DNA from: a virus
Direction: 5' to 3' (one strand)
Virus record (IMG/VR): IMGVR_UViG_3300021478_000113
Coordinates: 1-23,514 of that record
DNA: 23,514 nt
The notes under the pieces were generated by a model. It saw only the letters and a list, made by a program, of their open reading frames with translations, was not told where the DNA came from and did not search any database. Positions 2,313 through 23,448 of this stretch are shown here, one piece after another; positions within the stretch are counted from its first letter, which is position 1, and each line of letters begins with the position of its first letter. The position numbers and the translations under genes were made by a program.

Positions 2313-3965
2313 ATGGATACTACCCAAGGAATGCCGCCAGTAGCGATGCCAGCGAATTCGTTACTCGAAACGCTACGCAAACGCTACAACGCAGCTAAGT
2401 ACGTTGCTGACCTATGGATACCCATACAGCAAGCTTCATATTTCTATTGCATCCCATTTAGAAATCGCTACTACCTGCCAGGCAAAGAATTCCAGGGTAC
2501 CATTCAGAACTCCCGTGTCTATGACACTACCGCTGTAGAATCCGTCTCAAACTTCGTCTCCAAGATTCATGACACTATGACACCCCCACAGACGCAATGG
2601 GGCTTCCTAGAAATCGATGATGCGATGGTTGATGACCCAGGTGCTGAAGATAATTTAAAGCTCCTAGAAGAAGCCCAGATGGTTCTTGACGCATACATGC
2701 GTAGGCTCTTTACTTACATCCATGCTTCAAACTTCGATGTCACGATTAACGAATGCTATTACGATTTAGCTGTTGGTACATCAGCGCTTATCATCAACCA
2801 GATTAGCGATGAGATGCCATTCATGTGTACCAGTATTCCAGCCGATAAGCTGGCAATCGAAGAGGCGGTGAATGGCAATATCGAGTCATGGTTCCGTACA
2901 TGGCAGAACCTAAAGATTTCAGAACTGAATACTCGATGGCCGCAAATAGTCATCAGCGATAACCTTCGCGCTTTGATGGCGAGTGACCCAGATGCAGTCG
3001 TCAGAAACATTTACGAAGGCGTGGCTTACTTCCCCAATTTCCCTCAGAAGTACCTATACGCTGTCTGGGCTGATAATGATTTGCTTTACTTCCAGTGGCT
3101 AGATTCAAGCCCTGGAATCGTGTGGCGTTGGAAGAAAGTCAATAATGAAACGTGGGGTCGCGGCCCAGTAATGGAAGCGCTACCGTCTATCATTAGCTTG
3201 AATGAAATGGCGAGGGTCGAACTTGCTTCTGCTAACCTTAATACTTTTAGACCTTATATGGGATTTAGTGACGCTGTATTTAATCCTCATACATTTAAGC
3301 TCGAACCGTTCACCATTATTCCGATTTCTCCGATTGGTAGCAATGGGCAGGTTCCTCTTATTCCCCTTCCTAACAGCGCATCTCCTGAGTTCGCACAGAT
3401 GACGATGGCTGATTTGAGAATGCAGATTAAGCAGCTTCTCTTCGCAGAACAGCCCCAAGATTCACGCAGCGTCCAGCCTCAGACAGCCTATGAGCTTGCT
3501 ATGAAGCAATCCACCTTGGCTGAAAAGATTGGCCCGATATTCTCACGTATGCAGCAAGAGTTCCTATGGCCTGTGGTTAAGCGCTTCGCTTACATCCTCA
3601 ATACAATGGGTCTCTTGCCCTACCCAAAAGTCGGTGGGCTTCCAGTGAAGTTCAAGTACAAGTCGCCTCTAGCGCTGGCTCATGGTCGCGCAGAGGTCGA
3701 GAAGTTCGTCCAGTTCGTCCAGGTCATGCAGGGCATTATGGGGCCAGAAGCTTCACAGCTTTACATCAATCCTAAGACCACGCCTTACATGCTGGCAAAT
3801 CTGATGCAAATTGATGAAAGGTTCTTGAATACTCCTGAACAAGTTGCGACTATTGCGCAGCAAATACAGAATAAGCAAAGCTTGATGGAACTGGCTAATT
3901 CGACAGGCAGTATGCCTGAACAGCCCCAGAACCCTAGCTCACAACCAATAGCTATGTCGCAATGA
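2313..3965 (+). CDS. Portal (head-to-tail connector) protein
   Basis: A 550-residue protein, close in size to T7 gp8 (536), of the podoviral head-to-tail connector family. It forms the dodecameric ring at the unique capsid vertex through which DNA is packed and ejected. The N-terminal helix (about residues 18-45) with an L-R-K-R-Y-N-A-A start, and the T-P-P-Q-T-Q-W segment (90-96), are typical. The C-terminus is Gln/Pro-rich and low-complexity. It follows the preceding stop by 3 bp, with AGGCGG as a weak binding site, and precedes a Bbp19-like gene and the scaffold gene, the standard order. Confidence 0.93.
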   Translation: MDTTQGMPPVAMPANSLLETLRKRYNAAKYVADLWIPIQQASYFYCIPFRNRYYLPGKEFQGTIQNSRVYDTTAVESVSNFVSKIHDTMTPPQTQWGFLEIDDAMVDDPGAEDNLKLLEEAQMVLDAYMRRLFTYIHASNFDVTINECYYDLAVGTSALIINQISDEMPFMCTSIPADKLAIEEAVNGNIESWFRTWQNLKISELNTRWPQIVISDNLRALMASDPDAVVRNIYEGVAYFPNFPQKYLYAVWADNDLLYFQWLDSSPGIVWRWKKVNNETWGRGPVMEALPSIISLNEMARVELASANLNTFRPYMGFSDAVFNPHTFKLEPFTIIPISPIGSNGQVPLIPLPNSASPEFAQMTMADLRMQIKQLLFAEQPQDSRSVQPQTAYELAMKQSTLAEKIGPIFSRMQQEFLWPVVKRFAYILNTMGLLPYPKVGGLPVKFKYKSPLALAHGRAEVEKFVQFVQVMQGIMGPEASQLYINPKTTPYMLANLMQIDERFLNTPEQVATIAQQIQNKQSLMELANSTGSMPEQPQNPSSQPIAMSQ

Positions 3966-3972
3966 GGAATTA

Positions 3973-4305
3973 ATGGAAAACGACTTTCAACATAATCCGA
4001 TTTTAGAACCCGAAGATTATTTTAAACAGTACAAAGAAAACATCGAGAAGATGAAGTCAGACCCTTCAGTCATTGAATTTGACAAGCTGGTCTATGAGCT
4101 TTTCAAGATGAATGAACAGGGTAGACGTTTCATGGAAATCGTCACTCAGCGCTACCTGATTCCAGCCTTGGCAAAGCCTGGCACTGCGACCTATCAGCTA
4201 GATGTGATGTGGGCTGAAGGCTTCAAAGACTTCGCACGAATGATTCTTATGGCAATAACTGCCCATGACCAGAAAATTTTAGCAGAGACCAACAATGTCA
4301 AATGA
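3973..4305 (+). CDS. Bbp19-like small head-region protein
   Basis: A 110-residue protein between portal and scaffold. The pattern F-D-x-L-V-Y-E-L-F-x-M-N-E-Q-G-R-R-F (about residues 36-53), a central PALAKPGTATY segment and a following helix with E-G-F-K-D-F-A-R resemble the Bbp19 family of podoviruses, whose function is not well defined. Its stop lies 11 bp inside the scaffold gene. The family call is moderate. Confidence 0.6.
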   Translation: MENDFQHNPILEPEDYFKQYKENIEKMKSDPSVIEFDKLVYELFKMNEQGRRFMEIVTQRYLIPALAKPGTATYQLDVMWAEGFKDFARMILMAITAHDQKILAETNNVK

Positions 4306-4966
4306 AGAAAATGAACAACCAAAGTGGTTTATAGACGAAGGGATGCCTGGTGCTGGTGATAGACCTGGTTGGCTTCCTGAGAAGTTTAAGAGTGTAGCTG
4401 ACATGGCACGCAGCAATGCCGAACTTGAGAAAAGGTTGGGTACTGTTCCGGACGAATACGACTTTGCTAAATCTCGATTCCTCGACCCTGACTACGTGCC
4501 ATTTCAAGAACTTCAGGTTGCCGCTAAAGAAAAGCGGGTGCCTCAAGAATTCATCGATAAGATGATAGAATCAGTCGATAAGTATGTGGACGAGTTCAGG
4601 ACTGACACGGCTGAAGAATTGAAGAAGCTAGGTGAGAATGCTAGGGAACGAGTCGTTACCCTGGATAACTGGGCAAAGGCTAATCTTTCAAAAGAAGCCT
4701 ATGAAGGTCTCACTAATAGCTTAAGCAATGCGGAATCCATTAAGGCACTCGAAGAATTAAGAGGTAAGATGATGTCAAGCACTCCCCAAGTACCGAACAA
4801 CCAGGGCAATGTCGGTGGCGGCCAATCCCTTGAAGACGTTAAAATGGAACTCCAAAATAACCTTCAAAAGTACAAAACGGACGAGAACTACCGTAAAGAC
4901 ATCCAAAAAAGACTGGAAGTCGCTGCTAAAAATACACCTGGCTTTGTTGACAAAGTAGGCGCGTAA
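4295..4966 (+). CDS. Scaffolding (capsid assembly) protein
   Basis: A 223-residue acidic, helical protein directly upstream of the capsid gene. The N-terminal pattern G-D-R-P-G-W-L-P-E-K-F-K-S-V-A-D-M-A (about residues 21-38), followed by A-E-L-E-K-R-L-G and a PDEYDF element, is characteristic of podoviral scaffold proteins. It would template procapsid assembly and leave before or during packaging. Middle and C-terminal helices (about residues 75-120 and 178-210) fit coiled-coil multimerisation, with a Gly/Asn/Gln linker between. The start overlaps the preceding gene by 11 bp. Confidence 0.85.
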   Translation: MSNEENEQPKWFIDEGMPGAGDRPGWLPEKFKSVADMARSNAELEKRLGTVPDEYDFAKSRFLDPDYVPFQELQVAAKEKRVPQEFIDKMIESVDKYVDEFRTDTAEELKKLGENARERVVTLDNWAKANLSKEAYEGLTNSLSNAESIKALEELRGKMMSSTPQVPNNQGNVGGGQSLEDVKMELQNNLQKYKTDENYRKDIQKRLEVAAKNTPGFVDKVGA

Positions 4967-5123
4967 GGCTGATAATATGTATCAGTCCATGAACCATTCT
5001 GACAAATGGCTTATGAAAGGACAACTTACTACCTAGACCTCGGCAACGAGACAATCTAAAAAGTGGCAAGCCCTGAGATGATTTAGTCAAAAACTTGATT
5101 AATAATTTTAGGGGTTAAAAGCC
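4967..5123 (+). other. Structured 157-nt intergenic segment before the capsid gene
   Basis: The longest gap in the structural block, holding no convincing gene. Three hairpins can be drawn: CTGATA/TATCAG with a 5-nt loop (4969-4985, extendable to 4988 with one bulge); CTCG-GCAA-CGAG, a GNRA-type tetraloop hairpin (5039-5050) flanked by complementary TAGA/TCTA (5034-5058); and an 8-bp stem with one G-T pair and AAAC loop (5083-5102) followed by TAATTTT. The capsid ribosome binding site (AGGGG, 5109-5113) follows the third. Likely roles are mRNA processing, 5' stabilisation or translational control of the capsid message. Tiny ORFs of 17-19 codons exist here but lack support. Confidence 0.5.
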
Positions 5124-5951
5124 ATGTCTACTTCATTAACAGCCGTCCAACAGATAGAGTTTGATGCGCTTGTAAAAGCTGAATATCAATCTCTTGGTTT
5201 CTTGTTAAGAGATACTGTTCGCGTCCGCCGAGACGTGATTGGTGCATCCGTATCATTCCGTAAAGTAAACCAGATTCAGGCCGTGCCTACTGGCTACTTA
5301 CAAACCGTGGTCATTCAAGACCCTGGTTACACCCAGTCTTCTGCCATCCTGCAAAAGTACACCGCACCTACAGCGGTTGACTCTGTTCAGGAATTGACCG
5401 TTAACTTCGATGCTAAGATGGAAAATGCCATGTTAGTAGCGAATGCTCTCGGCAGACGTTCTGACCAAATCATCATTAACTCGCTCGCTGTCAGCCCAGG
5501 TCAAACTGTGGTGAATGGCGGAACGAATATGACCTATTCCAAGTTTACTCAGGCTATTCAGTTCTTCGACAATAACGCTGTACCATTGCCGGAAAGATTC
5601 GCTGCCATGTCTGCTAGCAACTTCCAAAGCTTGCTACAGGCTGACCAGTTCGTTTCTACCTTCTACACACAAAACCGTGTGTTAGATAAGGGCTTTGTCC
5701 GCGATTACTTGGGCGTGAATATCATTATCATCCCTAACATGGTTGAAGGTGGCTTGCCAATTTCTGCCAATGTTAGAAAGACTTTCTTCTGGCACAAGCA
5801 GTCAACTGGTATGGGAATCGGTCACGACTTCCGCACCGAAATTAACTACTTGCCACGCGAAACGTCCTGGTTGGTAAACGGTATTTTCAGTGCAGGCGCT
5901 ATCACAATCGATAATCTCGGTATCATCGAAATCGATTGTTTAGAGTCCTAA
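5124..5951 (+). CDS. Major capsid protein (HK97-fold, Phage_capsid_2-like)
   Basis: A 275-residue protein following the scaffold gene. It matches the pattern of the Phage_capsid_2 type: an F-D-A-L-V-K-A-E-Y-Q start helix (about residues 13-22), a D-P-G-Y segment (66-69), an N-F-D-A-K-M-E strand-helix element (94-100), then A-L-G-R-R-S-D-Q-I-I (108-117). The C-terminal half has the beta-rich P-domain-like segment and ends in a hydrophobic strand. It builds the icosahedral shell. The ribosome binding site AGGGG has a 9-nt spacer. Shorter than T7 gp10 (about 345), but normal for this family. Confidence 0.88.
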   Translation: MSTSLTAVQQIEFDALVKAEYQSLGFLLRDTVRVRRDVIGASVSFRKVNQIQAVPTGYLQTVVIQDPGYTQSSAILQKYTAPTAVDSVQELTVNFDAKMENAMLVANALGRRSDQIIINSLAVSPGQTVVNGGTNMTYSKFTQAIQFFDNNAVPLPERFAAMSASNFQSLLQADQFVSTFYTQNRVLDKGFVRDYLGVNIIIIPNMVEGGLPISANVRKTFFWHKQSTGMGIGHDFRTEINYLPRETSWLVNGIFSAGAITIDNLGIIEIDCLES

Positions 5952-5977
5952 GCCATTAACGAACAGGAGTATTAGCC

Positions 5978-6865
5978 ATGAGTTTTACTTTAGCGAACTG
6001 GACATGTGTATCACCGTCCTTAAACCAAGGTCAGGAAACCATAGTGCCTTTTGGTGGTTCCTCGACTGTTGAAAACGCGCCTAACATTTTTATGTATGGC
6101 AGCCCAAATGACACCGTTGCTACGATTTCAGCATCCAACTACTTCTTGGCGCAGTATGCGTCACTCTGCGTTGGCGACTGGATTCTCGGTAATGGTACTG
6201 ATGCAAGCTTCTCGCTCGTTGTAACGGCTGTAAGTTCTACCTCAGTCACTACAGCAAGTACAGGGTTAACGACTTCTATTGGTACTGCCAATATCGTCAA
6301 TAACGCTGTTACCTACGCGAAGATTCAACAAGCATCGGCAGCCAATGTGTTACTTGGAAACCCAACTGGCGGCGCAGCAAACTATTCCGAAGTTACTCTC
6401 GGTAATGGTTTAGACTTCGCAAGCACCGCCTTAGAGTTGAAACCTTCCTACCTAAACGTTGTAGAAGTCAGCTTAACCGCTGCTCAGTTTAATGGAATGT
6501 ATGCAACCCCAGTCCAAGTTATTGCTGCACCTGGCGCGAACAAAATCAATGTCGTTGACAAAGTTGTCATGAACATGACGTTCGTATCAGCGCAGTATGC
6601 TTCTGGTGGTGTTGTCGGTCTTCAATACGGTAACACGGCTCACTTAGCTGGCCCTGCTGCATCAGCTACTGAAGCTGCTTCCGACTATACCGGCGCTGCT
6701 GCTAGCACCGTGTTTAGATTCGGTGGTGGTTTATCGACTGGCGCTCCTATATCAACCTGTGCAAATACCGCCATTTACATCTCGAATGCGACTGGCGCAT
6801 TTACAACGGGTGATTCAACCTTTAAGTGTTGGGTGTACTACGTTACTCTTCCAACAAATTCTTAA
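5978..6865 (+). CDS. Head fibre / capsid decoration-like protein
   Basis: A 295-residue Ser/Thr/Ala/Gly-rich, beta-type protein directly after the capsid gene. Residues 1-100 look like a head-binding domain. Residues 112-132 carry a Y-A-K-I-Q-x-x-S-A-A-N-V-L-L-G-x-P-T-G-G element, a module widely shared among phage fibre proteins. A C-terminal beta domain follows (about residues 155-295). The position between capsid and tail adaptor genes suggests a fibre or decoration protein on the shell rather than the tail; this is inference. AGGAG precedes the start. Confidence 0.6.
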   Translation: MSFTLANWTCVSPSLNQGQETIVPFGGSSTVENAPNIFMYGSPNDTVATISASNYFLAQYASLCVGDWILGNGTDASFSLVVTAVSSTSVTTASTGLTTSIGTANIVNNAVTYAKIQQASAANVLLGNPTGGAANYSEVTLGNGLDFASTALELKPSYLNVVEVSLTAAQFNGMYATPVQVIAAPGANKINVVDKVVMNMTFVSAQYASGGVVGLQYGNTAHLAGPAASATEAASDYTGAAASTVFRFGGGLSTGAPISTCANTAIYISNATGAFTTGDSTFKCWVYYVTLPTNS

Positions 6866-6888
6866 TCGGTTGAAGAGAGGATTTTGGA

Positions 6889-7494
6889 ATGGCTTATACC
6901 AAGACGAGTATTATTTCTTTAGCGGTAATGCTGCTTGGTCATAAGCCTATCCAAACCCTTGACGATGCGGATGATATGGTCATATCCGCAGAGCAAGCAT
7001 TCGATATTCTATTGCCAGCCGTCTTAAGTACGGGCAACTGGCGATTTGCCATGAAGATTCAGCAATTAGTCCTTACAACTGAAATACCACCACCTCAGAC
7101 CAACTGGACGCAGATTTACCTATTGCCTGCCGGTTATCTGAAGAACATACGCATCATTCCCGAAAACTATGTGTATGAGATTTATTCTAATAATCAGATT
7201 TGGTGTAATTGGGGAACACAATCACCCGTTTACATGGAATATGCTTACATGCCGGAAATTGCTACATTTCCAGCCAACTTCATAAATTACTTTATCTATG
7301 AAATTGCTTGCTTCCTTTGCCTGGCAACGGCTCAGAAGCCTGACTACTTCCAAGCGCTGACCGCGCAAAAGAATATACAATGGGCGATTGCGGCTGCGGC
7401 TGACGCTCAAAATAGACCTCAGTTTAATGAATGGGAAATCCCAATGCTTACCAAGAGAAACATCAGTGGTATTATTGGGCCGCAAATAGGTTAG
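6889..7494 (+). CDS. Tail tubular protein A (gp11-like adaptor)
   Basis: A 201-residue protein, the size of T7 gp11 (196). It attaches below the portal as a dodecameric adaptor. Typical features are the start M-A-Y-T-K-T-S-I-I-S-L-A with L-L-G-H, an E-Q-A-F-D-x-L-L-P-A-V-L segment followed by G-N-W-R-F-A (about residues 36-58), L-P-A-G-Y-L (79-84), and a helical C-terminus with A-x-A-A-A-D-A-Q-N (about residues 166-174). It is followed at once by the nozzle gene, as expected. Confidence 0.88.
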   Translation: MAYTKTSIISLAVMLLGHKPIQTLDDADDMVISAEQAFDILLPAVLSTGNWRFAMKIQQLVLTTEIPPPQTNWTQIYLLPAGYLKNIRIIPENYVYEIYSNNQIWCNWGTQSPVYMEYAYMPEIATFPANFINYFIYEIACFLCLATAQKPDYFQALTAQKNIQWAIAAAADAQNRPQFNEWEIPMLTKRNISGIIGPQIG

Positions 7495-7504
7495 GGATTA
7501 TGAA

Positions 7505-10063
7505 ATGCCATACACTTTATGGTCTCAGGATATATTCTCGAAGGGAGAACTCTCGCCCCTAATGTATGCGCGTGCCACTGTTAATGAATATAACAATGGC
7601 TTAAAGACAGCGCAGAACGTCCTGACCTTCCCGACAGGCGCAGCGGGTAAAAGATTCGGTACACTTTATGAATCGACCCTAACTGGGTTTACAGCCTTCG
7701 ACCAGATTTATTTCAACACCTTCCAATACAAGAATGAATGCGTTTACCAGTTACTATTTGCCCCTGGCAATATCTACATTTACCTTGAAGGTTTACTGGT
7801 AGCAACCGTATCAATGTCGCTAACTGCATTGAACGTCTACAATATGTCGACAACTGTCTTAGGGCAATTGTTTAGGACATCAGGTCAAAGCTTTAAGCCA
7901 ATGGATTTAAGCCGTTCAGCTAATTCGCCTGGCACCATTAATGCCTTTACCTCGACAACCTTTTCAACCAGTGCGCCGACCTTTATTGCGAATAGGGTAA
8001 TGCCAGTGATTTTTGCAGTCACCGGCGGTACGATTATGGTTACAGTGCCACCGCTAACGGCAGGTGTCACTTACTTCATAGCGGCAATTTCCACGACTCA
8101 AGCCGCATTATTTGACACACCAGAGGCTGCCAAAGCTTATTTAATTAATCCGGCTGATACCTCAAGTGCCTTTGTGATTACCGGATTAGGCACAGGAACT
8201 ACGACTGTAGCGCCTCAGAACACATGGACATTTGCCGCTGCGACCTTTAAGAACCTGCCAGTCTATGATTTTAACGGCCCTGTAACGTCCTATGACGGTA
8301 TTGTTTTCACCCCTACTGGCACTACAGGTAATGGGGTAGTAATCAATTTAAGCTCGCCCTATGCCCCATTAACGACAGCTTACATTGGGGGTGCGTTCAT
8401 TGGTGGGGGTGGAACATCCCGAATCATCAATGTGAATAGCACTAGCCAGTTTGTTGTCGCTACCCAAACCCCGTTTGATAGCACGGCTGGTATCCAAGGC
8501 AGCCTTGCATTCCTGGCAGAACCTGCGTGGAGTGATGTCAGAGGCTGGCCGCAGGTCTGTTCCAGCTACCAGAACCGAGCGCTTTTTGCGAATACCGCCA
8601 GTCTTCCTAATGGGTTCTGGGCGAGTGTGATTAATGATTATACAGATTATGGCGATTTGACCACAGATGATGACGATGCAATTGCATGGTATCCAACCTC
8701 GGATAACATGAACTTCATTCGATTTATCGTGCCTTATCGAAGCATTACCGTTCACACCAACACGGGTATCTATTCAAGCCCATTGTCGGATATTGCGGCT
8801 ATCACCCCCAATAATTTCACCTTGCAGTTGCAAGATTCAACCCCTGCGGATGTCTTACAACCTCAAGCCATTGACAATCAAATCCTGGTATTATCAGGAA
8901 ATGATGCTCACCAAATGTTATGGGATGGGATAAACAATGCTTATACCAGCAATATTGTCTCGATTATCAATGAGCAAACAATACGTGAACCTCAAGATGA
9001 AACGCCTTTTGCTGCACTGCATCGCGCTGGCAGTCGCTTTGTATTTATCATCAATCTTAATGGCACGATGGCTGTATTCCAAACTCTTCTGACGCAGGGC
9101 GTATCAGGGTTTACCCCACAGGTTATGGAACAGTCCTATGGCTCGGCGTACTTCTTGCAAGCTGGAAGCAGTTCTAATGGCCGTTGCTGGTTCGTAGTTC
9201 AACGACAGATTGCCGCCGCCTTATCCCCAGTGGGTCTTAATGCAGTCGTCTCTCCATTCGTTTTACAGGCTCTGGGTGTCAATCTATCGACTACCTCACC
9301 CACAGCGGTTAAATTCGCAACGACTGGTACTTTGGCTGCTAGTAGCCCTCAAGTCACTACGACCAATTACTACTGGGCGGTAGGGTTAACGGTAGATAAC
9401 TTTCAGGTTTACCTTACCCAAGAAGACGCGATTGCAGGGGTTAACCCTATCGAATGGATAAACATTGGCAACCTTACAACGGTTACACCGTGGCCTTTGT
9501 CAACCATCTTCACCCTTGAAGAACTAACCACTGAGGTTTTCCTGGATTGTGCTGTGCAATATGCTGGCGCTCCTGCTTCTAGCATTACAACAGGAGTTCT
9601 ATTCAATGCCCAGGACGTGAAGATGGTAGGGGATGGCTTTGGCTTTGATTCACCAGCCGAAGATAATGTTGGGAATGTCGTGGTCTTTGATGCTCATGGG
9701 GTGGTGACTCAGGTATCTGAAGCCTTCATAGGCTTCCCAATTAACACCGTTATGGAACCGATGCCCCTGAATATCTCTAGCGGCCCTTCGGCTAAAGAGA
9801 CAACGATTACGAAGCCTAAACGCATAGAATGGGTTAGGTTCATGTTTAATAACACCATCGGTGGTACAATTAATGGTGTGCCAATAGCATTAGCACCCTT
9901 TGACCAAGCGAATATTGGCGAACCGCCATTTCCTGAAAGGGGCATATTTGAAATGAGTATTATGAAAGCGTGGGATGATTTTAATAACCCAGTCTTCACG
10001 ATTGAACATAATGACCCATTTGATATTCAGTTACTTGGCCTTTTCTATTCAGTAGAGATTTAA
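7505..10063 (+). CDS. Tail tubular protein B (gp12-like nozzle)
   Basis: An 852-residue protein, comparable to T7 gp12 (794), forming the hexameric nozzle at the end of the short tail. The N-terminus is diagnostic: F-S-K-G-E-L-S-P-L-M-Y-A-R (about residues 11-23), then G-L-K-T-A-Q-N-V-L-T-F-P-T-G-A-A-G-K-R-F-G-T (about residues 32-53). The remainder is beta-rich, with aromatic and Thr/Gly repeats of a propeller-type body. Ribosome binding site AGGG lies about 9 nt before ATG 7505. Orientation and spacing fit a continuous tail operon. Confidence 0.9.
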   Translation: MPYTLWSQDIFSKGELSPLMYARATVNEYNNGLKTAQNVLTFPTGAAGKRFGTLYESTLTGFTAFDQIYFNTFQYKNECVYQLLFAPGNIYIYLEGLLVATVSMSLTALNVYNMSTTVLGQLFRTSGQSFKPMDLSRSANSPGTINAFTSTTFSTSAPTFIANRVMPVIFAVTGGTIMVTVPPLTAGVTYFIAAISTTQAALFDTPEAAKAYLINPADTSSAFVITGLGTGTTTVAPQNTWTFAAATFKNLPVYDFNGPVTSYDGIVFTPTGTTGNGVVINLSSPYAPLTTAYIGGAFIGGGGTSRIINVNSTSQFVVATQTPFDSTAGIQGSLAFLAEPAWSDVRGWPQVCSSYQNRALFANTASLPNGFWASVINDYTDYGDLTTDDDDAIAWYPTSDNMNFIRFIVPYRSITVHTNTGIYSSPLSDIAAITPNNFTLQLQDSTPADVLQPQAIDNQILVLSGNDAHQMLWDGINNAYTSNIVSIINEQTIREPQDETPFAALHRAGSRFVFIINLNGTMAVFQTLLTQGVSGFTPQVMEQSYGSAYFLQAGSSSNGRCWFVVQRQIAAALSPVGLNAVVSPFVLQALGVNLSTTSPTAVKFATTGTLAASSPQVTTTNYYWAVGLTVDNFQVYLTQEDAIAGVNPIEWINIGNLTTVTPWPLSTIFTLEELTTEVFLDCAVQYAGAPASSITTGVLFNAQDVKMVGDGFGFDSPAEDNVGNVVVFDAHGVVTQVSEAFIGFPINTVMEPMPLNISSGPSAKETTITKPKRIEWVRFMFNNTIGGTINGVPIALAPFDQANIGEPPFPERGIFEMSIMKAWDDFNNPVFTIEHNDPFDIQLLGLFYSVEI

Positions 10064-16907: not shown

Positions 16908-18296
16908 ATGTCTCAAGTCGTCATAGGTGATATACTTCCGTACACTCAAGCTATCGCCATAGCGAGTCAGACCGTCTTTGGTACGAACTGGACAGCTAAT
17001 GCTGCTTCTGATGTTGTCGTCTATCAAACCCCTTCGGGAAGTTCGCCGAATGATGTTACTCAGAAACTGGCATATCCTGCCGGTTATTCAGTCGCCTTTA
17101 TAGGCGCTCTTCAAGAAGTTCAGGTCACATTGGTAACAGGTGCAGGTGCAGGTGACATTATCACTGTAACCCGTCAAACACCGGCTGACCGAGAGAACCT
17201 CTATACCAACACGAATTTCGTTCCTAGTATGCTGAATAATGATTTTGGCATTCTCACGCTTGTAGACCAGCAAGCTCAATTAGTAGACCAGAAGATTGGC
17301 CCTCGATACAACTATTCAGCCGTCATTGTGGATGTAATAGATACGATACTTCCTATCCTTGGCGCTAATCAGTTCTGGGTTAAGAATGCTTCTAACACAG
17401 CGATTATTGCTGCCACAATCAGTGGTTCGGCTGGAACGGGAACTGTAAATTTAGGAACTCAAAATCAATTAGCTTGGTATGCTACTTCAGGAACTGCGGT
17501 AAGTGGTTTGGGAGTTGGCGCAACTAATTCAATGCTTACAACGAATAGTTCAGGTGTTCCGACCTGGGCTACGTCTATCGCACCAACAAGTATTCTTGAT
17601 GCTAATGGAAATGTGATGGTTGGATTTACAGCGACACCAAGTGCTGTGAATTATATTCAAATTACAAACAATGCTACAGGTCATGCACCGGCTGTCGGTT
17701 CAGCAGGAGCAGATAGTGCTATTCCATTGCTTTTAAGCAATAAGAATTCCTACACATATTTTATTGATAGCACAGCAACAGCAGGCGGACAGATTAGATT
17801 ATACAATGCTGCCATAACACAATACACCGGATTTAAAGTAGCCACTGCTCAAGCAACCTCAATACTTTTTACAGTTCCAGCCGCAGATGGTACAGCAAAT
17901 GCACCTCTCATTACTGATGGTGCTGGAAACTTATCTTTTCTTCCTGGTGCTTGGTCTACATGGACACCGACATACACAGGTTTCAGTGGAACACCTACTA
18001 CAAACATTGCGCGTTACAAACAAATTGGTAAAACAGTATTTGTCGATTTAGATATGTCCGGCACAAGTAATGCAACAGGTTTTGCTTTCACTTTGCCAGT
18101 GACAGGTGGTGCATTAGGAATAACATTCGCAGTTGGCAGAGCAGTCGATAACAGTGCTTACTCAGCGCAAGTTTATGGTGCAGTTGGAAGTGGTGGCGCT
18201 ACATCTGGCGCATTTGTAATAGGTGACAATGGTTCAGGATGGACAAACTCAGGAACGAAAGGTGTACGCTGCTCGTTCTTCTACGAATCTGCTTAA
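16908..18296 (+). CDS. Tail fibre protein with T7-type N-terminal anchor
   Basis: A 462-residue protein. The first ~130 residues have the tail-attachment pattern of T7-like fibres: a Y-P-A-G-Y-S-V-A-F segment, V-x-V-T-L, G-D-I-I-T-V-T-R-Q-T-P-A-D-R (about residues 82-95), then F-V-P-S-M-L-N-N-D-F. The middle is a Gly/Ser/Thr-rich shaft. The C-terminal domain begins W-S-T-W-T-P-T-Y-T-G (about residues 350-359) with R-Y-K-Q-I-G-K-T-V-F-V, a tip module common in phage fibres. It should bind the bacterial surface. Ribosome binding site AAGGA lies about 11 nt upstream. Together with the next genes it forms an adhesin cassette. Confidence 0.85.
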   Translation: MSQVVIGDILPYTQAIAIASQTVFGTNWTANAASDVVVYQTPSGSSPNDVTQKLAYPAGYSVAFIGALQEVQVTLVTGAGAGDIITVTRQTPADRENLYTNTNFVPSMLNNDFGILTLVDQQAQLVDQKIGPRYNYSAVIVDVIDTILPILGANQFWVKNASNTAIIAATISGSAGTGTVNLGTQNQLAWYATSGTAVSGLGVGATNSMLTTNSSGVPTWATSIAPTSILDANGNVMVGFTATPSAVNYIQITNNATGHAPAVGSAGADSAIPLLLSNKNSYTYFIDSTATAGGQIRLYNAAITQYTGFKVATAQATSILFTVPAADGTANAPLITDGAGNLSFLPGAWSTWTPTYTGFSGTPTTNIARYKQIGKTVFVDLDMSGTSNATGFAFTLPVTGGALGITFAVGRAVDNSAYSAQVYGAVGSGGATSGAFVIGDNGSGWTNSGTKGVRCSFFYESA

Positions 18297-18306
18297 GGAG
18301 AAATGA

Positions 18307-18669
18307 ATGACTACGAATAATTTGAATTTTGGTACCGATGGACAAGGCAGAAATGCTTATGCACCAAATGTTTCTAACTTAATTTACCGTGCGTTGATTG
18401 GACAGAATGTTGCTCAATCCATTACGCTGCCATCAGATACTGGTGTACTAGATTATGAAGTTTGTTTTTCTTACTCAGCCGGTTCAAATATTTGGGTTGA
18501 TTATTCAGGAAGTCCAGCAACAGTTCCAAACAATGCAGCATTTGCAACAAGCAATTCAGAATATTGTCCAGGACAAAGAGTTCTTCCTGCCGGTTCTTCA
18601 TTAAGCATAATCACTCCTGATAGTGGTGGTGCTTATGTTGGAGTAGCAATCTATGCAAAGGCGAATTAA
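18307..18669 (+). CDS. Small beta-rich tail/fibre-associated protein
   Basis: A 120-residue protein between two fibre genes, with GGAG 6 nt before the start. It lacks long helices and is rich in Ser, Gly, Ala, Tyr and Val in alternation, suggesting a beta-sandwich. The pattern of a small domain near the fibre genes suggests a capping or accessory virion protein. No family recognised. Its end overlaps the next gene by 17 bp. Confidence 0.6.
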   Translation: MTTNNLNFGTDGQGRNAYAPNVSNLIYRALIGQNVAQSITLPSDTGVLDYEVCFSYSAGSNIWVDYSGSPATVPNNAAFATSNSEYCPGQRVLPAGSSLSIITPDSGGAYVGVAIYAKAN

Positions 18670-18835
18670 TGAATTTACGCTTGAGCCTATCAATAACATT
18701 ATGATGGGTTCTACATTTGGTGTATCGAATGTTATTCCACAACCATTCGCGCCAATGTTTGCATTTTTGTTAATGACAGGCGCTAATTTTATGTTAATGA
18801 ATGGGCAGGATTTATTACTGGTTAAAACTACTTAA
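18653..18835 (+). CDS. Small 60-residue protein in the fibre cassette
   Basis: ATG 18653 is preceded by GGAG with a 9-nt spacer; the start lies 17 bp inside the upstream gene and the stop is 13 bp before the next gene's start. The C-terminal half has hydrophobic elements of the type F-L-L-M-T-G-A-N-F-M-L-M-N-G-Q-D-L-L-L, a short repeated MTG/MNG turn pattern seen in small phage proteins encoded near fibres. It could be mistaken for a transmembrane segment, but Asn, Gly, Gln and Asp interrupt it. Function unknown. Confidence 0.55.
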   Translation: MQRRINEFTLEPINNIMMGSTFGVSNVIPQPFAPMFAFLLMTGANFMLMNGQDLLLVKTT

Positions 18836-18848
18836 GGATGGTGGCATT

Positions 18849-20180
18849 ATGGCTGGCGAAAATTTAGTTCAGGTATTTGCGGCAAACCCAATAACGACAA
18901 ATAATGCCACAGATTTAATGTATTTTGTGCGCGGCGGAACGACTGACGCTGCAATGCACTATTCAGATTTCGCTGCGCAATTTCCAGGAAAAACTGGTTC
19001 AGGTGCTTCAGGAACATGGGGCATAAACATCAGCGGTAATGCTGCAACTGCGACATCTTCTTCTAGCGCAAGCTCAGTTCCTGTTGGGGGAATAACAGGT
19101 CTTGGAACTGGTGTTGCCACAGCACTTGCAATCAATGTAGGTTCAGCGGGTGCTTTCGTAACTTTTAACGGTGCTGGTGGAACACCATCATCTATGACGG
19201 CGACAAATCTGACAGGTACTGCCGCAGGTTTGACCGCCGGTAATGCCACGACTGCTAGCGCAGTTGCCGTGGGTGGTATCACAGGTCTAGGTACTGGCGT
19301 TGCTACTGCCTTGGCAATCAATGTTGGCTCGGCTGGCGCATTCGTCACATTCAATGGCGCGGGTGGTACGCCGTCTTCAATGACAGCAACTAATCTGACT
19401 GGCACAGCGGCTGGTTTAACGGCAGGCAATGCAACTACGGCAGCGGCTGTCGCAGTAGGTGGTATCACTGGATTGGGTACAGGCGTTGCAACAGCATTAG
19501 CTATTAATGCCGGTTCGGCAGGAGCATTTGTTCGATACACAGCACCAACAGTTCAGAAGTTTACATCAGGAAGTGGAACCTATACGACACCTGCAAATTG
19601 CGCATATATCCGCGTTCTTGCTGTCGCAGGTGGTGGCGGCGGTGCAGGTTCAGGAACGACAGACAGTGGTACTCAAACCGCCGGTGGTGCAACCACTTTC
19701 GGTTCAATCATTAGCTTGGCTGGTGGTAATGCTGGCACAGCGGGCGTTAACGGTGGGGCTGGTGGTACTGGTGGTGTCGTAACAACAAACACGGCTTCCC
19801 CTGGCGGTATGGCTGTTGCTGGTGGTGGTGGTTCTGGTGGTATCTATGGAACAGCCGGAACAGGATTGCTTAATTCTAAAGGCGGTCATGGTGCAGCATC
19901 GTTCCTTGGCGGTTCTAGTAACTCAACATATACGGCTGGTGGTACTGGCGGCGCAACAAACACAGGCGGTGGTGGTGGCGGTGGTGCTTGTACTGGTGCT
20001 GGCCCTGGCGGTGGTGGTGGTGGTTCTGGTGCCGGTTGCGATGTTTTAATTACAGCACCTTCAGCTACATATAGTTATGGTGTTGGCGCTGGCGGAACAC
20101 ACGGAAACGCTGGTACTAATGGTACCGCTGGTACAGATGGTGGTTCAGGCTTAATCGTGGTTTATGAATTTTATAATTAA
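18849..20180 (+). CDS. Second tail fibre/adhesin: tandem repeats and glycine-rich tip
   Basis: The start is set at ATG 18849 (product begins MAGENLVQVF) because AAGGA and GGTGG lie just upstream; an in-frame ATG at 18801 has no such support and would overlap the previous gene. The 443-residue protein has an N-terminal segment (about residues 1-45) with F-A-A-N-P-I-T-T-N-N-A-T-D-L, a Gly/Ser linker, 62-residue tandem repeats (residues 79-228) and a glycine-rich C-terminal domain (about residues 235-443) introduced by F-T-S-G-S-G-T-Y-T-T-P. Glycine-rich tips of this kind occur in fibres and adhesins of several phages and would bind a surface receptor. The repeats are described separately. Confidence 0.8.
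   Translation: MAGENLVQVFAANPITTNNATDLMYFVRGGTTDAAMHYSDFAAQFPGKTGSGASGTWGINISGNAATATSSSSASSVPVGGITGLGTGVATALAINVGSAGAFVTFNGAGGTPSSMTATNLTGTAAGLTAGNATTASAVAVGGITGLGTGVATALAINVGSAGAFVTFNGAGGTPSSMTATNLTGTAAGLTAGNATTAAAVAVGGITGLGTGVATALAINAGSAGAFVRYTAPTVQKFTSGSGTYTTPANCAYIRVLAVAGGGGGAGSGTTDSGTQTAGGATTFGSIISLAGGNAGTAGVNGGAGGTGGVVTTNTASPGGMAVAGGGGSGGIYGTAGTGLLNSKGGHGAASFLGGSSNSTYTAGGTGGATNTGGGGGGGACTGAGPGGGGGGSGAGCDVLITAPSATYSYGVGAGGTHGNAGTNGTAGTDGGSGLIVVYEFYN
19083..19532 (+). repeat. Tandem 186-bp coding repeats, same protein but scrambled codons
   Basis: Units start at 19083, 19269 and 19455 (period 186 bp, 62 codons); the third is cut short after 26 codons. Units 1 and 2 share 58 identical consecutive residues (19083-19256 and 19269-19442), beginning VGGITGLGTG, but 44 of those 58 codons differ synonymously and none non-synonymously. 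The third unit has one change (Val to Ala) in 26 residues and again mostly different codons. The repeats would extend the fibre shaft. Confidence 0.95.
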
Positions 20181-22137: not shown

Positions 22138-23448
22138 ATTTATATACGGATTCCGAACATCAATCCCTACCCTCATCAAGCACGCATGTTCCGCGCTATG
22201 GTCGAGGACAAGAACGTCTGCGCGGTCATCCATCGCCGAGCAGGAAAGGACATATTTTCTATCCAGGCATGGCTTCTGCGCGGATTGCGTAGAATCGGGA
22301 CGCATGTGTACCTGTTCCCACTTCACAAACAAGCCCGTTCGGTTATCTGGGATGGACTCGATTTCGATGGCAGACCGTTCATGGATGCGATACCGAAGTC
22401 GCTTGTTGCTAAACGCAATGAAGCAAGAATGGAAATCACTCTCTTTAATGGTTCTAAACTTATTCTGGCAGGCAGCAATAATTACAACGGACTCATGGGG
22501 TCTAATCCTGTTACCATTATTTATAGCGAGTTCAGCCTTCACAATCCTTTGGCTCGTCAATACCTCAATCCAATTATCGTCCAAAACAAAGGGCGAGAGA
22601 TTCTACAATACACCCCCAGGGGAATGAATCACGGGTTTGAAGTCTATAACCAAGTCAAAGACCTTCCTGATTACCACGTAGAGCATTTAAGCGTAGAACA
22701 GACCTTTAAATGCGATGGCTCGCCTATCATAACGATGGCAGACATCAAGCGTGCCAAAGACCTTGGCATGTCTGAAGAGCTTATACGGCAGGAATTCTAC
22801 GTTGATTTTGAAGTCGGAAACCTGGGTGCCTATTATACCAGAGAAATGAGCGATATGGTGCGCGAAGGTCGCATCATGCAATTGAAACCAGACCCAAGGC
22901 TAAAGCTGCATAGCGTATGGGATTTAGGGGGAACAGATGCTACAGCAGGACTTCTCTTTCAAGTTACTGGCCGTTATGTACACATCCTTTATCTTATTCA
23001 CGATACTGGCCGTGGTTTTAAATCCTATCTCGATGAAGCCGAAAGAGTACGCCAGAATTTCGGATGCGAATGGGGCTACCACTTTGGGCCGCATGACATC
23101 GACCAAAAGCACCAAGGATGGGAACACACTGAGTCTCGCTTAATGTCAGCCCGAAAGTACGGCTGGCATTTTCAGATGGTTCCTAAAGTATCACTCGAAG
23201 ACGGCATAGAATCTGTACGCTACATGTTCCCGCGAATGAGAATCGATAAAATCAACTGCGACATAGCCATCAGAGCCATACGCGAATTTCAACGTGAGTT
23301 CGATGAGAAAAGAGGAGTCTATAAGAAGGCACCCTTAGAGAACTGGGCAATACATATCGCCGATGCGTTCCGCTATCTCGCAGTACAATACCGGCGATTA
23401 TATGACACCCCAATGGCCCCGTCCACCTACAGCACGGGAAACATGTAA
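22138..23448 (+). CDS. Large terminase subunit (packaging ATPase/nuclease)
   Basis: Numbered from ATG 22186, motifs are: Walker A-like H-R-R-A-G-K-D (16-22), Walker B-like I-I-Y-S-E-F (111-116), and nuclease acids in W-D-L-G-G-T-D (Asp246), G-P-H-D-I-D (Asp304) and I-A-D-A-F-R-Y (Asp393). The product translocates and cuts DNA at the portal. I place the start upstream because the conserved adenine-binding Q motif (I-P-N-I-N-P-Y-P-H-Q) is encoded at 22150-22179 and lies in-frame before ATG 22186. The only in-frame initiators there are rare ATT/ATA/ATC codons; ATT 22138 has AAGGA 7 nt upstream (436 residues). The alternative is a frameshift from ATG 22121. The last 20 codons plus the stop lie in the right terminal repeat. 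Confidence 0.9.
   Translation: MYIRIPNINPYPHQARMFRAMVEDKNVCAVIHRRAGKDIFSIQAWLLRGLRRIGTHVYLFPLHKQARSVIWDGLDFDGRPFMDAIPKSLVAKRNEARMEITLFNGSKLILAGSNNYNGLMGSNPVTIIYSEFSLHNPLARQYLNPIIVQNKGREILQYTPRGMNHGFEVYNQVKDLPDYHVEHLSVEQTFKCDGSPIITMADIKRAKDLGMSEELIRQEFYVDFEVGNLGAYYTREMSDMVREGRIMQLKPDPRLKLHSVWDLGGTDATAGLLFQVTGRYVHILYLIHDTGRGFKSYLDEAERVRQNFGCEWGYHFGPHDIDQKHQGWEHTESRLMSARKYGWHFQMVPKVSLEDGIESVRYMFPRMRIDKINCDIAIRAIREFQREFDEKRGVYKKAPLENWAIHIADAFRYLAVQYRRLYDTPMAPSTYSTGNM

Follow-up and report, generated by a model that had tools for sequence, protein, structure and literature searches.

The window, by which we mean the whole 23,514-nucleotide stretch analysed (a 23.5-kb virus record), carries genes for a portal/head-tail adaptor, a major head protein, a tail protein, an integrase and a terminase. 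After the virion genes, and directly downstream of an apparently mosaic fibre-like ORF at 16908-18296, lies a fibre-like gene whose central part is built from tandem repeats. Its features are as follows.

18849..20180, plus strand: gene for a 443-residue fibre/adhesin-like protein, as called from the ORF; an in-frame ATG lies upstream at 18801
18849..19067, plus strand: N-terminal segment (LVQVFAANPITTNNATDLMYF...) and GTWGINISGNAATAT linker; possible virion anchor
19068..19253, plus strand: repeat unit 1, 62 codons
19254..19439, plus strand: repeat unit 2, 62 codons
19440..19532, plus strand: truncated third unit, 31 codons, after which the C-terminal domain starts
19533..20177, plus strand: C-terminal glycine-rich domain, as judged from the sequence

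The fibre-like gene and its history among relatives

Residues 49-96 of the ORF give a weak match to PHROG 356, 'minor tail protein' (E 1.9e-5, over 48 residues only), and the proteins of unit-bearing relatives match the tail fibre PHROGs 11518, 11393 and 6202. From its composition and position, the domain at 19533..20177 is probably the distal, adhesin-like part of the protein. In Pfam the window protein has no match at E 0.1 to Gly_rich_2 (PF21722), a family that is matched by the C-terminus of another unit-bearing protein, L216. A PDB sequence search found nothing, and the structure model (pLDDT 52, pTM 0.21) was of too low a quality to be compared with known folds.

Mosaic phage tail fibre and adhesin genes encode modular proteins and are accessory to the phage backbone. 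The window gene resembles them in being modular and accessory, and in adjoining a fibre-like gene with a conserved N-terminus and a variable remainder. Unlike theirs, however, its repeat unit belongs to no recognised Pfam family. The gene is missing from nearly all close relatives: the unit is present in only one of 38 portal-bearing relatives, G036 (the same as L001), whose portal is 90% identical. The N-terminal segment is likewise missing from 19 of the 20 larger near relatives, and over its first 56 residues it is 54% identical to the L001/G036 homologue.

Base composition sets the region apart as well. GC3 is 0.45-0.51 in the portal, head, tail and terminase genes (2313-10063 and 22186-23448) and 0.23-0.40 in the fibre region (16908-20180), a drop that is in line with mosaic exchange. 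The neighbouring ORF at 16908-18296 keeps a conserved N-terminal part of ~170-250 residues in each of the 20 relatives compared, and its remainder is variable; it looks like a mosaic fibre whose anchor is fixed.

Repeat units within the window

Units 1 and 2 follow each other with a period of 62 codons and share 60 of 62 residues but only 16 of 62 codons, their 48 base differences being distributed 3/0/45 over codon positions 1, 2 and 3. An earlier note on this DNA had reported 58 consecutive identical residues, beginning at 19083, in which 44 of 58 codons differ, all of them silently; our recount agrees exactly, and the third, partial copy behaves in the same way, as the note had also said, with 29 of 31 residues and 9 of 31 codons identical to unit 2. 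The dN/dS comparison proposed there gave, by the Nei-Gojobori method, pN 0.023 and pS 0.81 for units 1 and 2, with synonymous sites so saturated that dS is not computable.

The protein identity of the two units is far beyond chance; in DNA they differ to the extent expected from random synonymous choice. When codons were drawn from the usage of the window, the simulated nucleotide identity was 0.735, compared with 0.742 observed (P=0.67), and the longest exact run was expected to be 11.6 nt, compared with 11 nt. The note had named, as an argument against its own interpretation, that constraint alone might generate the same synonymous divergence, and this is largely what we find, since random choice reproduces the DNA identity. 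A stricter null, in which codons were permuted within each unit, gave 21.1 identical codons where 16 are seen (P=0.035); nucleotide identity and the longest run again agreed with expectation. For the whole window array, the three pairs summed share 31 codons compared with 41.4 expected, an uncorrected joint P of 0.0037 and, at z -2.76, the lowest value of 42 arrays; over 42 arrays this P becomes about 0.16, and the window had been picked for looking extreme.

These figures bear on the note's main proposal, that natural codon scrambling stabilises the fibre. Slippage or recombination would delete identical repeats, and selection would push neighbouring units below random codon identity; we regard this as improbable. 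In its general form, in which protein-identical neighbours in fibre arrays are kept dissimilar in DNA, the more weakly the farther apart they lie in the gene, the window array being the clearest case, it seems to us no less doubtful. The low z of the window array does favour it, as does the scarcity of adjacent pairs with similar codons described below, but it predicts an excess of dissimilar pairs that is absent from the calibrated data. The permutation null is well calibrated, unrelated pairs having a mean z of 0.14 (sd 1.01), and 441 of the 8317 such pairs fall below z=-1.5. Within genes the corresponding count is 5 of 76 (P=0.60), so that the survey of fibre repeats called for in the note reveals no excess synonymous divergence.

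In an enlarged set, z is under -1.5 in 13 of 227 adjacent pairs compared with 2 of 238 non-adjacent ones (P=0.003), a difference that scrambling would lead one to expect. However, the adjacent low tail of 5.7% matches the 5.3% of the unrelated null, and adjacent pairs have on average a z above zero. Neighbours are therefore more often fully saturated than distant units, with no overshoot beyond saturation. With adjacent and distant labels permuted within proteins, P is 0.024 at a threshold of -1.5, 0.066 at -1 and 0.40 at -0.5, the thresholds having been chosen post hoc on data already seen, and we take the adjacent-versus-distant difference as a weak hint. Together with the array-specific signal, it hints at a small place for selection or recombination loss. 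Random choice accounts for the observed DNA identity and within-gene pairs lack a low excess, so selected scrambling is possible but not needed to explain the pattern; active diversification, which the note had also listed, finds no support.

A minus-strand ORF of 193 codons (18959-19540) covers the repeats, and its third positions face the sense third positions. Double coding of this kind would constrain codon positions 1 and 2 and leave position 3 free, but we give it hardly any credence. In this phase, antisense stops are possible only opposite sense Tyr, His and Gln, and residues 61-245 include none of these; the frame is open because the sense strand has no such codons there, and would be so whatever sense codons were used. 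We therefore rejected it.

Silent-site saturation across a phage module

Viral contigs searched with a single unit gave 309 confirmed matches, and further queries added many multi-unit arrays. The module spans ~43-62 residues around a core, ITGLGTGVATALAxNVGSAGAFVTFNGAxGTPSSxTxTNxTG, and the remaining parts of the proteins that carry it differ widely. The unit is a module of phage fibre-like proteins that is widespread and apparently undescribed. No Pfam model scores above its cut-off for the repeat unit; in the nearest, DUF7454 (PF24253), the window fragment reaches 20.9 bits, under the gathering cut-off of 27, and 8 of 38 members gave weak matches, with E up to 0.1. Among the papers searched for the unit peptides, none prints them. 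Searches of the phage collection returned zero and one relative, with low-complexity masking probably hiding most.

How far apart are these copies at silent sites? Clustering by context linked almost all the proteins that carry the unit into one chain through shared modules, and direct pairwise similarity was used instead. In 10,591 pairs of units from proteins otherwise without detectable similarity, mean protein identity is 0.77, and codon identity at identical residues is 0.295, compared with 0.274 for random draws from the codon usages of both proteins. The 13 such pairs in which protein identity reaches 96% or more give 0.274 compared with 0.279 random, and in the enlarged set the unit module gives 0.304 compared with 0.275. 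Individual cases make the same point. Units on unrelated contigs have up to 42-43 of 43 residues identical with 7-16 codons matching, the extreme being L071 and L270 (43/43 residues, only 7/43 codons), and one peptide of 28 residues recurs unchanged in the two window units, in L027/L030 and in L202, each comparison finding 5-11 of its 28 codons in common.

Since codon identity between unrelated proteins is at the random level, synonymous sites are saturated family-wide, and the two units of the window gene thus resemble a pair taken from unrelated phages. The same protein constraint recurs in independent lineages, and the strong constraint on the repeat protein suspected in the earlier note is borne out by the same peptide occurring in unrelated phage proteins with saturated codons. 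Within the clade of the window phage, the nearest relative that carries the unit has a portal at 90% protein identity, and its portal gene shares 0.49 of the codons compared with 0.40 at random; silent sites in this clade are therefore near saturation. The unit arrays found in bacterial chromosomes on long contigs, few in number, are likewise divergent in DNA.

A sibling fibre module (ATFLATPSSANL...VTDETGTGALVFATSPTL..., ATFLATPSSANLAAAVTDETGTGALVFATSPTLVTPALGTPASGTLTNATGLP) has at least 591 confirmed matches in viral contigs (L474-L552), nearly all best hits, among the matches listed, showing 74-93% identity over about 106 residues. Its codons too are at the random level between contigs, with an identity in the enlarged set of 0.305 compared with 0.286 random.

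Origin of the repeats

We consider it likely that the repeats reflect long divergence of a widespread fibre module under strong protein constraint, with saturation of silent sites, and this is the best explanation of the data. The units would be copies of a widespread structural module that serves as shaft or linker in fibre-like phage proteins; few amino-acid changes would pass selection on the protein, and synonymous sites would be free. Both the shaft or linker role and the structural nature of the constraint are our reading of the sequence pattern. The copies would have separated long ago, through an old duplication or through arrival from different donors. Because of that separation, with synonymous sites free, silent positions would now be at the equilibrium of random codon choice, and neighbours would be as different in DNA as the units of unrelated phages. 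Saturation erases the dating signal, and any age for the units is therefore a lower bound. Mainly, then, the repeats look as they do through old age and strong protein constraint. Besides the lost dating signal and the low confidence of the structure model, two observations count against this explanation. The codon identity of the window array is lower than composition predicts, and the window units exceed most saturated pairs in protein identity, 96% or more being reached by 2 of 25 saturated pairs of adjacent units compared with 12 of 9161 unrelated ones, which implies a constraint within a fibre tighter than that across the family.

Assembly from divergent relatives, also raised in the earlier note, would bring the same peptide with different codons from different donor phages, with no duplication in place. 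Other phages do carry identical peptides with unrelated codons, and the restriction of the unit gene to one of 38 portal-bearing relatives implies that fibres are exchanged. GC3, which separates the fibre region from the core genes, differs between the units too (0.27, 0.40 and 0.23), but these differences are small over 62 codons. No DNA-level donor match was found for either unit, the best codon match being 0.49, and no other retrieved unit fully matches the 58-residue stretch of units 1 and 2. We think such an assembly rather unlikely. The two units of G036, identical at 48 of 58 residues, have a codon identity of 0.32 compared with 0.35 random. Window unit 1 has codon identities of 0.45 to the second of these and 0.34 to the first, and window unit 2 of 0.42 and 0.33. 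This slight closeness of both window units to the second G036 unit may reflect either an old duplication or separate acquisition.

Young copies, still alike in DNA, are scarce. Codon identity exceeds 0.8 in only 3 of 268 adjacent pairs, so the near-identical repeats in related phages that the earlier note had named as grounds for dropping its reading are not what is seen; no tandem array of period at least 60 with more than 91% matches occurs in 1.66 Mb of viral loci. Deletion of DNA-identical repeats may be one reading of this, and loss in assembly another. In the latter, DNA-identical arrays exist but are collapsed or broken by short-read assembly, leaving only divergent arrays visible. In 4 of 80 contigs an end falls no more than 25 nt from a unit, compared with 0.37 expected (P=0.0006), which suggests that assembly breaks there, and the L202 contig ends within its second unit. 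Assembly bias against DNA-identical repeats is thus a real caveat, although as the explanation of the pattern we hold survivorship of this kind to be less than even in probability: it accounts for the missing young arrays but not for the protein identity kept in the survivors, and divergence is also seen in the arrays of the long bacterial contigs. The contigs that end at repeat units, oftener than chance, are L026, L068, L069 and L072.

Polyubiquitin genes are eukaryotic, and their product is cleaved into monomers. As outlined in PMC10457151, they resemble the window gene in consisting of head-to-tail coding repeats with a near-fixed protein and many synonymous differences, a divergence addressed by Nei et al. 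2000 (cited there). The window units show this combination of near-identical protein units and saturated synonymous sites. For polyubiquitin, however, concerted evolution is argued in the same source on the grounds that the units of one locus are more alike in DNA than those of different species, whereas the window units have random codon identity, 0.23 compared with about 0.30 between unrelated genes. In the L248 and L252 arrays, unlike the window, units of one gene are more alike in DNA. Engineered codon scrambling of repetitive genes likewise encodes the same protein with different codons and prevents recombination between repeats (PMC12365220), but such genes are designed to be maximally diverse, whereas the DNA identity of the window units is at the level of random codons.

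A striking pattern of the same protein with different codons can simply be where a highly conserved repeat ordinarily ends up, and a calibrated null is now available for claims of natural codon scrambling. The unit data set offers a place to test recombination avoidance with long reads. The phage fibre module itself is large and apparently uncurated, and that its sequence stays almost fixed in unrelated phages asks to be explained in terms of structure.

Finally, the unit-bearing proteins L203, L204 and L380, from Bradyrhizobium and related genomes, start with an apparent secretion signal (e.g. MRSFLSALVAAAALCSPAAAQYP), which is unusual for a tail fibre.
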